Source: Maylandia zebra (lineage: Eukaryota > Chordata > Actinopteri > Cichliformes > Cichlidae). Taken from it: 64,000 bases of DNA. The notes under the pieces are model-generated. The model was not told the origin of the DNA and did not search any database. It was given only the letters and a program-made list of their open reading frames with translations. Positions 37,841-50,388 of the stretch are shown in pieces. The position numbers and the translations under genes were made by a program. The DNA lies in NCBI RefSeq assembly GCF_041146795.1, contig NC_135170.1, positions 20,888,033 to 20,952,032 on the forward strand. The letters are read 5' to 3'. The number at the start of each line of letters is the position of its first letter. The stretch's first letter is position 1.

Positions 37841-40168
37841 AAATTTCCAATCAAAATGTTTATTTTTAAACGATAAAAAGATTTTATCTGCTAACAACAT
37901 TTTCCATGCCCACACAGGTCAGTGCTTACAAAGACTTTGTCAGCTTTCACATGTTTAAATAAGCGTTTTAAGGTCAGGACTTGACGCAAAATATAAAGTC
38001 GCGATAAACAATTTTCTGGAGACACTTCTAAATATGAATCTGTGCATTTCCTCTTTGTCAGGAATGATAAAACATTACACATTATATTTACATTATTTTT
38101 GGATAATAATACACTCCCACGAATTAATATGAGCAAATTAATAAAAAAAACCCCAATTACAATAACCTCTGATCTTAATTAAAATCGCGGTGTTTTGTTG
38201 AACGCAGGATGGTGCAAACCTAAAGCTAGAAATTGGGCTGAATCACGTACAAAACTTCATCACAATTCAACCAAAGCCACCTGTCAGCCAGCGAGAAATC
38301 GTATTTGGCATCGCTGTCAAAGAATGTTCCAACTGAATGAATTTTAGCCAGCAAAGATTGTTCCACAAAGACCGCGATCAGATAACTCTACAGAAACTCT
38401 GCAAGTATAAACAAACAGTGCAAAAAGAAATAGTGAGAGCGGGTGGACAGTCAAAGAGCAACAACAGCAACAACAACACTCCTTAAACTTCAGTTTGATT
38501 TTAATTTCATCAGCAGCGTATTAAATATCGGTATGTACACGTTTGAAAGTTACATAGAAAAAATATAGTATTACAGTAGGCCTGTTTGTTAGTAGCTTGT
38601 TACACAGTTACCTCCTTGGCAGGTATTGGCCTCCTCTGAACTACATGAAATACTCATCTTTTATCTTTGAAGAAGCCTTTGTCCGTGCTGCTCTCTCTGA
38701 CGGTGACTGTCAGGAAGTTCAAGGTGACATCGGTTACGGTCACAGTGTCCAGGTGAGCGAAACAGGGGGTCCAGGATGAGGCTGGATGCTCGGAGGATTC
38801 GTGGATGGAATCGGTGTGTGAAGGTGAAGCTTGTTCCCGGGGCAGAGAGTTCTCGTTCGCTGCAGGCCGCTTCATGCTCAAACAGTGAATCCTGTGCCTC
38901 CCCTGCTCGCTTTTGCGCAAATCCGAAGCTAATGCGCACGGGTAAGAGAAGCCCGCGCCCCCCAAATGTCTCTGCTCGCTGTGGGATTTGGGTGTTATCG
39001 TGGTTTCCTCCTGAAACCTCTTGGTCAACTGCATGAGGCAGTGATCTGACGTCTCCCCGTGATGATGCGGGCGTCGGCTGTGGTGAGACGTGGGCTCATT
39101 CGTGAACTTGCTACGTTTGGCGTCTGGCTCTGCTGAGCTGCTGCCGTCGTCTTTATCATAATGCATGTGCATTTTGGGTTTGCGTCCTCTCTTTTTGGGG
39201 AACTGCTGAGCAGCTGCTGGAGTTGTTCTGGGTCTTCTCTCCAACTCTGGTGGGCGAATGTGGACACTTTCCCCTCTGTTGACCGCGCTGGGCGGGAAGA
39301 TTGTGGGAACCACGGTGCGCAAACCCTCCCTGGCCCTCGGTGTTATGATAGGCTCGGGGATGGGATAGGAAACCTGGATCCCTCTGTGAGCCTCTCTTCT
39401 AAATTCATACGTCTTTTCTTTGGCTTTGGCTTTGGCCTGAGGAAGCAAAAAAAAAAGAGAAGAAAAAAAAACCCAATTACATTTATGACGAAAAGTTTCC
39501 CAGAATTGAAAATCTTAAGTCTCTTGAGCAAATGTAAAGTTTTAGAGGCCTTGACCTAAAGTTTCTGTGATTTAAAGGGAATGAAAGGCTGTAAGAATGA
39601 AAATACTGTTAATATTCACATGTAAAGTCATGTAAAGTTCTTTGTCCAACATTACATGACCAGAAACCTTTGAGAAAAGAGATCTTTGGAGACATTTTTT
39701 CAAACTTACAATTGTTTTCAAAAAACTGAAACCACAGCACAGTGGCATCAAAGTTTATAGGAGTGCACACATCACTGAAATGGTTCAGCCTGTGCACATG
39801 AAGCCACGCCTCGGAAAGACAAGCGAATAAAACGGAATACCCAGAAATAAATACAAACACTCACCTTTAAAAGAAATGTCTCAGGCTTGGGTCCCCTCTT
39901 TTTCGGCCCGAACATCTCCCTTTCTCGCTCCCTGAAGAATTTTTATAAATCGTTAAAAGAGTCCGCACGACACAATAAACAATTATTTTTCATTAAGTCA
40001 ATGATTAAATTGGAACATCTCATTTTACTGGACTATGGGCTGAAATTCAACCCGCTTCCATCAGCTTTCACTTGTAAGCTAAATACAAATCGAATAAAGC
40101 GAAATATATATGCATCTGTTTGGGATTTATTTATTTATTTTAAATGGGCGACATCACATCTTGCAGCT
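37841..40168. repeat. cbx8 segmental duplication, source copy A
   Basis: This interval, covering cbx8 exons 4 and 5, the intron between them, part of intron 3 and downstream DNA, is repeated at 42257-45217 in the same orientation. Homology begins at an AAATTTCCAATCAAAA word and ends at CACATCTTGCAGC. It is taken as the source because it is continuous with exons 1-3. Confidence 0.92.
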
Positions 40169-41091
40169 ACTTAAAGTGGCTCTGCTGACACTTTCCTGTC
40201 AGGAATGGGGATGTGGGGCTCATAGATTTAAACCCAGACTAAATGTTTTATTTAAAGTGACACTTTTGCAAAATGCGCGGTGCCAACTCGATTCTGCAGG
40301 GAGAGGGAGAGAGAGGCCTACTTGTTTCACTGTCAAACCCTCACCTCTCTTCGAAGGCAGAGAAGAGACGTGCATCCAGAATGTTTTCCTCCGGCTCCCA
40401 AGTGCTGTACCTACGTCACAACAACCGAGAGGAGAGGTGTTTGGCGACACACAGACACACACTGAGAAACGCTCATTTGTCAATGCGCAAAAACACGCGC
40501 TCCTGACACTTTTATCAAAGCAATCTCGCTTTGCTCGCTCTGCAATTACAGACTACGTAGCAGGACAGTGACGCATGGTGAACTCAGCCATTGCTAAAGC
40601 TAGTGTAGACTTCAACACATCTCAGCGGGCTGAAAGCGAGATGTGTTCAAACACCTGCCAGGTGCACACGAGCCAGCAGGCGCACGGCACACGGCACCGC
40701 CGTACACCGAGTGCATGAAATGCATTTTATTTTTTTTTAAAAACAAACCACACATCCACAAAGCTGAGTAACGCCACACTGTGTGATGGTGCAGTTGTGC
40801 AAGCGGCCAGGATGGAGCGCTGTCCTTCACAGCTTCGGTTATTATACTCACTTCTGAGACCAACCCTTCCATTTCACGAGATATTCCCAACGACCCTGCA
40901 AAAACAGACCCACAACAGAGTCAGGTTATCAGATGTCTACGTGTCGACACTGCAAACGCACATGTTTGCGTTAGAGACGCAGAGACACAGCCTGCGGGTG
41001 GAGGAAAAAAAACAGCGAATACCCGTCTGATTCGCCGTTTAATGATGGACTCGGCTGCGAAGACGCTCTCACCGACAGCCGAGAGCTCCAT
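38654..41091 (-). CDS. cbx8: cbx8, Polycomb chromobox protein 8
   Basis: Subunit of canonical PRC1; the chromodomain binds H3K27me3 and the C-terminal Pc box binds RING1A/B. Five coding exons: 41023-41091, 40852-40895, 40345-40410, 39865-39931 and 38654-39436; phases agree, 342 aa (human 389). Start [20 protein letters not shown] has a strong Kozak context. The aromatic cage residues F11, W32 and W35 are all present. Then [16 protein letters not shown], an ATG-containing exon 4 ([18 protein letters not shown]), [12 protein letters not shown], a [10 protein letters not shown]-hook-like word, and the Pc box [16 protein letters not shown] ending FFKDKR. Residue 26 is W where human has M (GRWEYL). 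Exons 4 and 5 are duplicated upstream. Teleosts have cbx8a and cbx8b; I cannot say which this is. Confidence 0.97.
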
Positions 41092-42162
41092 GGTTCACCA
41101 TGCACCTCGTTTATTTCTGTGTTTTTTATTATTTTTGGCTTCCCCTCGTCCTCTTCGGGTTGTTTAATTCCGCACATCCCATAATACGCACAACAGGACG
41201 TCATCACGTCTTTTTCTGTTGCCAGGCGCCGCGGTCGGTAGGACGGATCGTGGCGGAGCGCATTGGCTCAGTTGTTGCTACGTGCTCCGGATTTCTGAGT
41301 GAATGGGGCGGAGTCTTGTGCTGTGGCTGCTGTACAGGAATGTCTGGCACAGTGGACTAAGCAAAGTCAGAGGGTCTCGGAGCGGGTCTACTGACCCCCC
41401 CAGAGGTCCATGAGGGGGTACAAAGAGCCCTCCCCTACACGGCGAGAAGAAAACGCTGAATTCCACTAGAATAAAAAAGAAACGCGAACAAAGATGGAAG
41501 ACTAACTCCTTTATTTAATGAAAGATTGTATACTTAAAAAGCTCAAATAAAGGTGTAAAAAATCCACAAAATATAAGTCTATAAAAAGCAGAAGCATGAA
41601 CTACTCAGCGCTAAAATAACAGGCTAATAATTATTATGATAATAATGACATGCAGATGCAAATGTATTAAATGAAACCGTATCAAGCTTGTACTGAGTAA
41701 CCCCGGGTTACTGTTTTAACTGATCTACAGATCTAAATAATTTTTTTAATGACCTGTTTATTATAAAAACATAATTTAATGTTAGATGTAAGCAGTGTCG
41801 TGTTCACACGCCGAGTCTCTAAAGAAGGTTGTTCCCACTTGTTCCCATTGCTCCGTCCTTGAAACACTTTCACTGTCTGTGTCCATAATTCAGCCAGCAT
41901 GGCTCAAATTACATAATAGATAATAGAAATATTATTTAAAAATACGAATTTTAAAATTGTCTGTTTTTAGCGGCAATTCCGGGACCTACTGGTGTAAATC
42001 TTTATGGCAGAAGAGAAATCTCTGGCACATAAAACAAAGTCGGTTTGTTTTAATTTGCTATTTCAATGGCAACAGTTATGGAAACGATTGTTACAAGAAG
42101 ATCTAAAGAGTATGAAGAGCAAATTTACGATTTAATTTTAAGTTCTGCAAATTAACGCACAA
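41092..42162 (-). promoter_or_regulatory. cbx8: cbx8 promoter region
   Basis: Between the cbx8 ATG and the duplicated block. CpG-rich up to about 41340, then AT-rich. The start site is not fixed; no canonical TATA box is obvious close to the ATG. Confidence 0.45.
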
Positions 42163-42236
42163 GCAGCAGCATCCTGTCAGAGTTTATCCTGGGAAGATGT
42201 GAGAGGAAACAACATGTCAGGGACTTTGAAACTTTG
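42163..42236 (+). repeat. Left direct repeat flanking cbx8 copy B
   Basis: A word series running ATCCTGTCAGAGTTTATCCT to GGACTTTGAAACTTTGAG. The same ~73 bp recurs at 45218-45290 with about five differences. It is not present at the source copy. Confidence 0.9.
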
Positions 42237-42545
42237 AGGAGAAAAAACTGTCCAAGTGAAATTTCCAATCAAAATTGTAAAATTTAAAGGATAATCAGAT
42301 TTTATCTGCTAACATTTTCCACGCCCATACAGATCAGTGCTTACAAAGACTTTGTCAGCTTTCACATGTTTAAATAAGCGTTTTAAGATCAGGACTTGAC
42401 GCAAAATATAAAGTCGCGATAAACAATTTTCTGGAGACACTTCTAAATATGAATCTGTGCATTTCCTATTTGTCAGGAATGATAAAACATTACACATTAG
42501 ATTTACATTATTTTTGGATAAAAATACACTCCCACCAATTAGTAT

Positions 42546-42735
42546 AGAATAGAATCGAAAAATCCTTTAATTGTCCCACAAGGGGAAATCTGGTTGTAAC
42601 AGCAACCAGAAAGACACATATACAAACAAACAGTACACAGGACACAGAGCAGAAACATACACAATGTTTTTCTTACATATTTACATCAAGGACAATGGTT
42701 ACTATAAACAGAGTAATGTATGGGCAAACTAATTA
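42546..42735 (-). mobile_element. LINE/SINE 3'-tail insertion in copy B (minus)
   Basis: Absent from the matching position of copy A (about 38123). On the minus strand it ends with a (TATTC)n-like tail after a GGGACAATTAAAGGATTT word. So it inserted after the duplication, or was lost cleanly from A, which is less likely. Confidence 0.8.
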
Positions 42736-44109
42736 AAAAAAACCCCAATTACAATAACCTCTGATCTTAATTAAAATCGCGGTGTTTTGTTGAACGCAGG
42801 ATGGTGCAAACCTAAAGCTAGAAATTGGGCTGAATCACGTACAAAACTTCATCACAATTCAACCAAAACCACCTGTCAGCCAGCGAGAAATCGTATTTGG
42901 CATCGCTGTCAAAGAATGTTCCAACTGAATGAATTTTAGCCAGCAAAGATTGTTCCACAAAGATCGCGATCAGATAACTCTACAGAAACTCTACAAGTAT
43001 AAACAAACAGTGCAAAAAGAAATAGTGAGAGCTGACAGTCAAAGAGCAACAACAACAGCAACAACAACACTCCTTAAACTTCAGTTTGATTTTAATTTCA
43101 TCAGCAGCGTATTAAATATCGGTATGTACACGTTTGAAAGTTACATAGAAAAAATATAGTATTACAGTAGGCCTGTTTGTTAGTAGCTTGTTACACAGTT
43201 ACCTCCTTGGCAGGTATTGGCCTCCTCTGAACTACATGAAATACTCATTTTTTGTCTTTGAAGAAGCCTTTGTCCGTGCTGCTCTCTCTGACGGTGACTG
43301 TCAGGAAGTTCAAGGTGACATCGGTTACGGTCACAGTGTCCAGGTGAGCGAAACAGGGGGTCCAGGATGAGGCTGGATGCTCGGAGGCTTCGTGGATGGA
43401 ATCGGTGTGTGAAGGTGAAGCTTGTTCCCGGGGTAGAGAGTTCTCGTTCGCTGCAGGCCGCTTCATGCTCAAACAGTGAGTCATGTGCCTCCCCTGCTCG
43501 CTTTTGCGCAAATCCGAAGCTAATGCGCACGGGTAAGAGAAGCCCGCGCCCCCCAAATGTCTCTGCTCGCTGTGGGATTTGGGTGTTATCGTGGTTTCCT
43601 CCTGAAACCTCTTGGTCAGCTGCATGCGGCAGTGATCTGATGTCTGCCCGTGATGATGCGGGCGTCGGCTGTGGTGAGACGTGGGCTCCCTCATGAGCTT
43701 GCTATGTTTGGCGTCTGGCTCTGCTGAGCTGCTGCCGTCGTCTTTATCATAATGCATGTGCATATTGGGTTTGCGTCCTCTCTTTCTTTCTAGAACTGCT
43801 GGGACACTTGGAACGTCAGAGCAGCTGCTGGAGTTGTGTTGGGTCCTCTCTCTCTCCCCCTCTGTTGACCGCGCTGGGCGGGCAGATTGCTGGATCCACT
43901 GTGCGCAATCCAGCAATCTGGCCCTTTTCTTTGGCTTTGCCTAAGGAAGCAAAAAAAAAAAGGCCTTCTTGTGCTTTTTATTAACAAAAACGGTGCAAAA
44001 ATAAAGCTTCACGTCGACTTTATGTGTAGTGTTCAAGTAGAAAAGGATTTTTCTTCCGAAGTGCAGAGTAGCTGAAATACATTTGTGACGAAAAGTTTCC
44101 CAGAAATGA

Positions 44110-44355
44110 AAATTTTTCCCCTCCTGTCTGGAGGGGAGAGGGAAGGGAAACAGGAGATCAAAGGAGGGAGGAACAACTAAGCTGCAGTGCCTCTGCACCT
44201 CACTGTACAATACCTTGTGCAATACTTTTTGTAAATAGTCAACAGTGCAATAGACTCAATACTTGAAATGTGCAATTCACTTGTATTTTTATTTTTTATT
44301 CCTATTTATTCTATTTATCCCCTTTGTATATTTTATTTATATTTGTCTCTGTATT

Positions 44356-44453
<98 letters not shown>

Positions 44454-44568
44454 ACAGTTCTGTAACTGTAACTTCGGTCGTTGCTGTGCTTTTTTTGGAA
44501 GTCGAATTTCCCAGAGGAACCCACCCGAGGGATTAATAAAGTTCTATCTTATCTTATCTTATCTAAAT
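44110..44568 (+). mobile_element. LINE-tail insertion in copy B intron (plus), with microsatellite
   Basis: Absent from copy A at about 39513. It ends GGGATTAATAAAGTTCTATC followed by TATCT repeats, the usual tail of several fish LINEs, and includes a (TG)n/(TA)n tract at 44361-44453. Confidence 0.82.
44361..44453. repeat. (TG)n(TA)n microsatellite
   Basis: About 36 TG units then about 10 TA units, read directly. Confidence 0.97.
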
Positions 44569-45217
44569 CTTAAGTCTCTTGAGCAAATGTAAAGTTTTAG
44601 AGGCCTTGACCTAAAGTTTCTGTGATTTAAAGGGAATGAAAGGCTGTAAGAATGAAAATACTGTTAATATTCACATGTAAAGTCATGTAAAGTTCTTTGT
44701 CCAACATTACATGACCAGAAACCCTTGAGAAAAGAGATCTTTGGAGACATTTTTTTAAACTTACAATTGTTTTCAAAAAAGTGAAACCACAACACAGTGG
44801 CATCAAAGTTTATAGGAGTGCACACATCACTGAAATGGTTCAGCCTGTGCACATGAAGCCACGCCTCGGAAAGACAAGCGAATAAAACGGAATACCCAGA
44901 AATAAATACAAACACTCACCTTTAAAAGAAATGTCTCAGGCTTGGGTCCCCTCTTTTTCGGCCCGAACATCTCCCTTTCTCCCTGAAGAATTTTTATAAA
45001 TCGTTAAAAGAGTCCGCACGACACAATAAACAATTATTTTTCATTAAGTCAATGATTAAATTGGAACATCTCATTTTACTGGACTATGGGCTGAAATTCA
45101 ACCAGCTTTCATCAGCTTTCACTTGTAAGCTAAATAAAAATCGAATAAAGCGAAATATATATGCATCTGTTTGGGATTTATTTATTTATTTTAAATGGGC
45201 GACATCACATCTTGCAG

Positions 45218-45290
45218 CACAGCATCCTATCAGAGTTTATCCTGGGAAGATATGAGAGAAAACAACATGTCAGGAACTTTGAAACTTTGA
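45218..45290 (+). repeat. Right direct repeat flanking cbx8 copy B
   Basis: Second copy of the 42163-42236 sequence, starting ACAGCATCCTATCAGAGTTT and ending AACTTTGAAACTTTGAG. Four of the visible differences are G in the left copy and A in this one. Confidence 0.9.
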
Positions 45291-45532
45291 GTTGCTATAG
45301 AGTTATTTAAAATAATGCACACAAACGCTTACATACTCTGTCTATAATAATAATAACAATAATATTAATAATGAAATATTTTTTTAAATGGCTTTCTTTC
45401 TGCTTGGACAGATCAGCCATTTATTTATTCATTTATTTAATTTTAAATAATTACTTATTGAGAACATAAAATCATTTCCAGTTATTAAAGAAATTATCAG
45501 AAAAAAATGCAGAAATTGTTGGCTTCATCATC

Positions 45533-48974: not shown

Positions 48975-49430
48975 TAAAACATTGGTTCAAATAAAAAAAA
49001 CATGTTAACGTTTTCCACTAGAATTTTTGAGTTAAGCCAACTTCTGGCAGAATAGCATTAATTCAAAGCAATATTTTTGAGTATGGTGAAGTAGCTTTTT
49101 TGGCCACAAGTAAAAACATTCTTAAGTAAAATTAACTTAATAATTTTCGACTAGAACACAAAAATTTAAGTTGATCCAACGTGAATTTTACGTATAGTGA
49201 AGTTACTTTTTGGCCACAAAAAAAAAACACATTCTGAGTAACATGAACTTAATAATTGTCAACAAATACACAGGAATTTAAGTTGATCCAAGATTATATT
49301 TATGTATGGTGAAGTAGCTTTTTGATCAAAATAAAACACATTTATAATTAAAATGAACTTAACTGTCGGCATAAATAGTATTTATGTTGGTCAAATATGA
49401 TATTTTGGTTACAGTGTAGTAATTTTTTGG
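48975..49430 (+). repeat. Tandem repeat, ~111 bp unit, about four degenerate copies
   Basis: GTGAAGT(A/T)(G/A)CTTTTT recurs at 49086, 49197 and 49309, and GTGTAGTAATTTTTT at 49414: spacings 111, 112 and 105. Each unit also carries AACTTAATAATT-like and TTTAAGTTGATCCAA words. Confidence 0.85.
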
Positions 49431-50388
49431 TCCCACAGGAGATTCTATAAGGGCATTTACCTGTTTCCCAGCAGGCTAAGTCGCTCCAAAATACAACCTT
49501 GATCAAAAGCTGTGTCTTATAACCATGACTACCGCGTGGGCAGGCTCATGCATGGTGGTGCCTGCCCACAAAGAAGTCAAGGTTCTAAGACCTTAGAAAC
49601 TTGTCGATCACTTTTTTCCCCAAACGAAGGTCAGCCTTAACATGCGCTGTGTGTGCTCTTGTGTCATGACCTTCAGAAAAAGAAATGGATGTTGTGTGTA
49701 TTTGTTTGAATGCGGCAGATGTGATGCCAAATACCTGGACATCAGCTAAGGGACTCGTACCTGGTGCTCAGAAAGAATAGAAATTCAGAAAGATGTATTC
49801 AAATGAGTTAGACCCATTTAATTACAATAACAAACATCACAATTCTTTAACGTGCGCGTGAAGTGCAAGATTTGTGGGCTTCAGTTTCCTAGAACACAAG
49901 TTGCCTGCTGAAACTTAATGAGCTGTGTATTAAAATTGTAATACAACCTACTACTTGAATCCTCTTTTTTTTAACTTTAACATGTGACAGTGAATCAAAA
50001 CAATAGATGACAGGCTGCTATACATTAAATGCACTAATTTAAACATAAAATGAGCAAAGCTTCTTTCATTCAACTTTGTCAGCACTCTTACAAAGTATTC
50101 TTGATTCTCTTCTATATTTGACTTTTCACCCTCAAGATTAAGGCCAGCTAAAGAGGGCATTACACAAACTTTAAAACACACCAATACCCTCAGAACACAG
50201 GTCATGGGAGAAATTAAACGCATTCCTTAAAAATGTGCAAATAACAGCATTTAAGGCACGGCAAAACATTAACTCAGAAGACTTAAGAACAGCGCTTTAA
50301 AATTTAGTAAAACACATTGAAGTAGTGCCAGAAATGCAGGAATAAGGTTTTTGTGAAACTCACTCACGAATGGTCTATCAAGTCTGCT

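Follow-up and report, generated by a model that had tools for sequence, protein, structure and literature searches.

A partial cbx8 copy between 72-bp direct repeats in Maylandia zebra, with the layout of a DUP-NML-DUP rearrangement

The cbx8 gene of Maylandia zebra lies on the minus strand of the analyzed window, a stretch of 64,000 nucleotides (C4:20888033-20952032; positions given below without a contig are those of the window), with exons 1-5 running from ~41.1 to 38.65 kb. The peptide of exons 1-4, joined by hand, matches the chromodomain (Chromo, PF00385), and exon 5 matches CBX7_C (PF17218, E 1.3e-14). A second CBX C-terminal motif, at 55.6-57.0 kb, is taken to be cbx4, judged by its place: in the teleosts described in PMC7230241, cbx8 has been kept as a pair and cbx4 is located 5' of cbx8. 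A second cbx8 gene (ohnolog) was found at C6:40516500-40522500 and was used to polarize changes in exon 5. The window also carries a degenerate tandem repeat at 49075-49432 (shift 111 bp, 73% identical). The genome searched comprised 962 Mb in 63 contigs, and all whole-genome place counts are lower bounds.

Part of cbx8 is present a second time at the locus. The source block, A (37841-40167, 2,327 bp, minus strand), was delimited by alignment and its CBX7_C match, and includes the 3' flank of cbx8, exon 5 with the Pc box, intron 4, exon 4 and part of intron 3. It is followed by block B (40168-42166, 2.0 kb, minus strand), which holds exons 3-1 with the chromodomain together with the upstream region and is copy-neutral between A and R, as defined by a genome search, the exons and the Chromo match. 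R (42167-42238) is the left copy of a 72-bp direct repeat. Next come a filler of 20 bp (42239-42258), the derived partial cbx8 copy A' with exons 5 and 4 only (42259-45218, minus strand), and R' (45220-45291), the right copy of the repeat. The limits of these last elements were set by alignment, and those of R and R' also by a genome search; no strand was assigned to R, R' or the filler. A and A' align in the same orientation, with 2.1 kb from the end of the source to the start of the copy and 4.4-5.1 kb from start to start, and A' is longer than A because of two insertions of 176 and 455 bp and a scrambled stretch. The earlier note on this DNA had described a same-orientation repeat of 37841-40168 at 42257-45217, bracketed by direct repeats of ~73 bp that are absent at the source, with about 20 bp of filler on one side. 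The alignments reproduce this picture with slightly adjusted limits; the repeat measures 72 bp without gaps and the filler is on the left side only.

R was found at at least two places in the genome (E <= 0.001), both of them flanking the copy at this locus, and a simple composition model predicts ~1e-25 pairs of this length in the window, which excludes chance. B has one full-length place; the other four of its five matches are 38-76 bp long (80-92% identical) and lie on C6 and C8, those at C6:40.52 Mb being exons of the cbx8 ohnolog. Searches of the genome with two pieces of A (its left end and the exon-5 stretch) yielded no third copy. In five clean collinear blocks, A and A' differ at 33 of 1876 positions (1.76%), a figure that omits the first 52 bp (8/52), the scrambled stretch and a number of very short blocks. 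The 13 listed blocks together give 61/2161, again with very short alignment blocks omitted. R and R' are identical at 68 of 72 ungapped positions; if a gap is allowed, BLAST lengthens the match to 77 columns (42162-42238 / 45216-45291). At all four differing positions the left copy has G and the right copy A, as had been noticed before, although four sites carry little weight and the pattern is unexplained.

The neighborhood was scanned for comparable duplications over 264 kb (the window and the 200 kb before it), on the same strand, with spacing under 20 kb, E <= 1e-15 and the low-complexity filter on. A/A' was the only pair longer than 1 kb at >=90% identity, a satellite-like array aside, whose long rows are 81-88% identical. 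The next-largest duplication measured 517 bp at 97.5%, and one region says little about the genome. The array (~17 kb, tandem) lies upstream of the window at C4:20722207-20739174, and the 517-bp duplication is direct and located at C4:20866845-20869100, with related pieces adjoining it. Among the matches listed in a literature search on teleost cbx8 tandem duplication, there was no paper on this duplication.

The two junctions, their filler and microhomology, and the copy numbers of the segments are direct observations. At junction 1, the end of R is joined to the start of A through the 20-bp filler. At junction 2, the end of A is joined to the start of R; GCAG(C) microhomology is present on both parents, and two extra bases were gained (parents TTGCAGC and AAGCAGCAGCATCC, product TTGCAGCACAGCATCC). 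No template for the filler was found nearby, matches within the window having E values of 1.2 or worse. The best local template was no better than those of shuffled sequences (137/200 reached its score, and 111/200 in the comparison with the left flank of the source). A genome-wide search with the filler plus the left end of A' likewise returned no filler template, in a setting where 20 bp alone could not reach the threshold. Close to junction 1, the alignment revealed a cluster of 8 mismatches in 21 bp (42276-42296, no strand assigned). None of 5000 simulations, each of which scattered 41 differences at random over the 1,928 bp tested, reached such a cluster. A local template for this cluster was not found (152/200 shuffles reached the score).

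New here are the scrambling at exon 5/intron 4 of the copy, which spans 43785 to 44110, and a ferritin-derived segment of 116 bp within it. According to the alignment, the scrambled part of exon 5 (43785-43940, minus strand) has several indels, with losses of 77, 21, 7, 4 and 4 bp and gains of 18, 6 and 2 bp. A genome search with the scrambled patch matched cbx8 itself only, and so gave no sign of a template elsewhere. The C6 ohnolog agrees with the source over approximately the first 60 codons of exon 5 (a 19-residue stretch against AQAKVKSKSYDFRSEAVRG, and on to RPPEL); the state of the source is therefore ancestral there, and the changes in that part belong to the copy. A hairpin with 13-bp arms (43883-43920, no strand assigned) is present in the copy only (DNA fold z -4.6, versus +0.8 for the source), and both of its arms differ from the source. 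A hairpin and a dense cluster of changes, both absent from the source, may recall the short-range template-switch mutations described in PMC7954356; a point of difference is that both hairpin arms have changed here. The two large insertions are also confined to the copy. That of 176 bp (42542-42717, minus strand by its tail on inspection) is an interspersed repeat, for which the own-genome search scored 40 places of 605 candidates, itself included, the 39 others being 93-95% identical. The 455-bp insertion (44110-44564, plus strand) carries a (TATCT)n tail and has a short target duplication, AAATYTT; in appearance it resembles a LINE truncated at its 5' end.

The 116-bp segment, located in intron 4 of the copy (43966-44081, minus strand, i.e. 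cbx8-sense), was recognized by a genome search as part of a ferritin 5' UTR. It is identical at 116/116 positions to C4:4719699-4719814, 16.2 Mb away on the same chromosome; the five matches, itself included, also comprise two places at C4:3.91 Mb with 115/116 identity and a 64-bp match at 92%. All four donor loci have an iron-response element (Rfam RF00037), and in one donor locus scanned, the ferritin domain (Pfam PF00210) was matched by two of three reading-frame pieces. At donor locus L039, 17 bp separate the piece from the iron-response element that precedes it, and 12 bp separate it from the start codon that follows. Its right end shares TACA with the source, GGCC(T) is extra at the left, and ~20 bp of the source sequence were lost. 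No nearby template was found for it at 30-60 kb of the window (15/40 shuffles reached the score). Since the piece is contiguous in genomic DNA, an RNA template cannot be told from a DNA one. The lack of any difference in 116 bp does not conflict with the age of A' (probability between 0.13 and 0.36), so the capture may belong to the same event or to a later one. We regard the piece as a candidate class 2 templated sequence insertion, the signature of which, as given in PMC5110952, comprises a short insert with a distant template, microhomology or extra nucleotides, and neither a target-site duplication (TSD) nor poly(A). The cbx8 insert resembles the cases described there in being a short stretch of a distant transcribed gene with microhomology, a small deletion, extra nucleotides, no TSD and no poly(A); it differs in that the donor is on the same chromosome and the insert lies inside an already duplicated segment.

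The coding state of the copy was assessed from its reading frame. Exon 5 of the copy (43245-43940, minus strand) is open from the acceptor to the stop codon, and its Pc box is as good as that of the source (CBX7_C, E 9.7e-15 versus 1.3e-14). Exon 4 is kept apart from 4 bp lost beside the acceptor, as are the exon-4 donor and the exon-5 acceptor AG. The copy has neither the chromodomain exons nor the cbx8 upstream region. Compared with the source, exon 5 shows dN 0.029 and dS 0.036 (dN/dS ~0.8), with 11 nonsynonymous and 4 synonymous codon changes among 180 codons, and the probability that the frame stays open through the scrambled part by chance is ~0.11. None of these three measures supports purifying selection on the open frame of the copy. 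As the substitutions are such as drift gives and the frame may be open by chance, the copy is called a putative cbx8 pseudogene fragment, on the strength of its structure and neutral-looking substitution.

With A and R doubled and B single, the locus has the topology of a directly oriented DUP-NML-DUP rearrangement, in which duplicated segments surround a region of normal copy number. The junction pair that goes with it is also present, R end to A start via the filler and A end to R start. For the human PLP1 locus, three cases of directly oriented DUP-NML-DUP with this pair of junctions are on record (PMC6902434): of the 50 gains in that cohort, nine showed a DUP-NML-DUP array pattern, of which four were direct, and three of those four had this junction pair, with insertions and microhomology among the junctions described. 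The fish locus shares with these FoSTeS/MMBIR products a copy-neutral region flanked by two duplicated segments in direct orientation, as well as insertions or microhomology at the junctions. It differs in being far smaller (2.3 kb, 2.0 kb and 72 bp), in occurring in a reference genome as opposed to patients, and in being old enough to have diverged by 1.8%. Substitutions near junctions are expected of error-prone repair synthesis according to the same source.

The reading we prefer, with a probability of roughly 0.55, is that A' and R' both come from one local accident of repair or replication, in the course of which the template was switched twice. Synthesis in the plus direction would have passed B and R to 42238 and then left its template, gaining the 20 bp of filler after departure. 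Resumption ~4.4 kb back, at 37841, would have been followed by copying of the 2.3 kb of A, after which synthesis, by way of the GCAG(C) microhomology, would have skipped B and started again at 42167, 72 bp behind the departure point, whereby R would have been made twice. R' is thus better read as the overlap between the departure (42238) and resumption (42167) points, a second small duplicated segment, than as a target-site duplication. As for the ferritin capture and the scrambled exon 5/intron 4, they may date from the same event or from a later break in the copy. That both junctions stem from one event, and that this event was replicative, we infer. Two switches are favored by the filler at junction 1 together with the GCAG(C) at junction 2; the eight substitutions in 21 bp near junction 1 are as expected of error-prone synthesis, and the use of a distant template at this locus, evident from the ferritin piece, also counts for template switching. 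Against a single event stand the filler, which has no recognizable local template, and the ferritin insert, which is not at an outer junction and may hence be a separate event; moreover, two events would look the same in a single genome. A marginal objection is that R/R' are more diverged than A/A' (4/72 versus 33/1876; Fisher p 0.045); this is not predicted by a single event, yet fits more mutation near junctions, and is weak evidence either way.

Two other routes yield the same product as the two-switch event. A tandem duplication of the 4,398-bp unit A-B-R, i.e. of the whole cbx8 gene, with the 20-bp filler, followed by a deletion of ~2.0 kb of B' at GCAG(C) that left R', is possible but doubtful. 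It gives exactly the observed order, orientation and junctions, and explains the adjacency and same orientation of the copy without a further assumption. The deletion, however, must by chance end <=72 bp from the end of the unit: for an unrelated deletion with a uniform end in B'+R' (2,071 bp), a return 72 bp from the departure point has a probability of ~3.5%. Nor was a remnant of B' found in the own genome, an absence that this route permits but does not need. A return near the departure point is what a single detour is expected to give, and on this rough argument one event is favored. The other route, which we hold to be unlikely, is a staggered break with nicks ~72 nt apart, in which fill-in of the long overhangs doubled R and nearby A was captured as a patch. 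Paired nicks with overhangs of 43-46 nt give tandem duplications in cells, as described in PMC8355091 and PMC5730883, and microhomology, a TSD and filler occur together in 2 of the 39 proximal repair duplications described in PMC2671141 (Pace 2009). The cbx8 copy resembles the duplications of that study in having its donor within 5 kb (2.1 kb away), filler (20 bp) and microhomology (GCAG(C)), and no poly(A) tail. Its 72-bp repeat and its 2,327-bp patch nevertheless exceed the values published there, TSDs of 4-21 nt and proximal human cases of up to 619 bp, which are an observed range and not a strict definition. The earlier note had proposed duplicative insertion by staggered-break repair or template switching. 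The class of process and the lack of a transposase footprint stand; the 72-bp repeat, on the other hand, need not be a staggered-break TSD, as the DUP-NML-DUP topology fits.

The remaining explanations have far less in their favor than the two-switch event. An assembly artefact, in which two haplotypes were joined head to tail, is very unlikely. A divergence of 1-2% is within the haplotype range of some fishes, but B is not duplicated, the two large insertions, the ferritin piece and the scrambled exon are in the copy alone, and the locus lies inside a 37.4-Mb contig in a window without N. Insertion of A by a transposase or LINE with a long target-site duplication, an explanation of negligible probability, was rejected, as the element ends, poly(A) tail or terminal inverted repeats and short TSD that it leads one to expect are not seen. 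Direct repeats do flank A', and the filler has a run of six A (42242-42247); this run, however, does not abut A', and inspection places it on the strand opposite to the one where a cbx8-sense transcript would have its tail. Moreover, the repeat is 72 bp long, the introns are kept, R is at only two places in the genome (a lower bound), and, as judged by eye, the two ends of A' do not form an inverted repeat (the search covered inverted repeats >=30 nt). A spliced retrocopy was rejected as well, because the copied block keeps its introns and 3' flank and no poly(A) tail abuts A'. An extended version of the switching model, in which one multi-switch germline event would have built R, the filler, the left part of A', the ferritin patch (templated by an abundant mRNA), the right part of A' and R' is hardly credible; its product would be a putative transcribed, chromodomain-free Cbx8, with splice sites, open frame and Pc box kept, that might act as a PRC1 decoy.

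Read as the outcome of two template switches, the locus is a small fossil in which a DUP-NML-DUP rearrangement of a fish can still be read, and to which the ferritin patch adds a candidate templated insertion. In such a rearrangement, the second duplicated segment can pass for an oversized target-site duplication, and surveys that take long flanking direct repeats for staggered breaks could misfile such cases.
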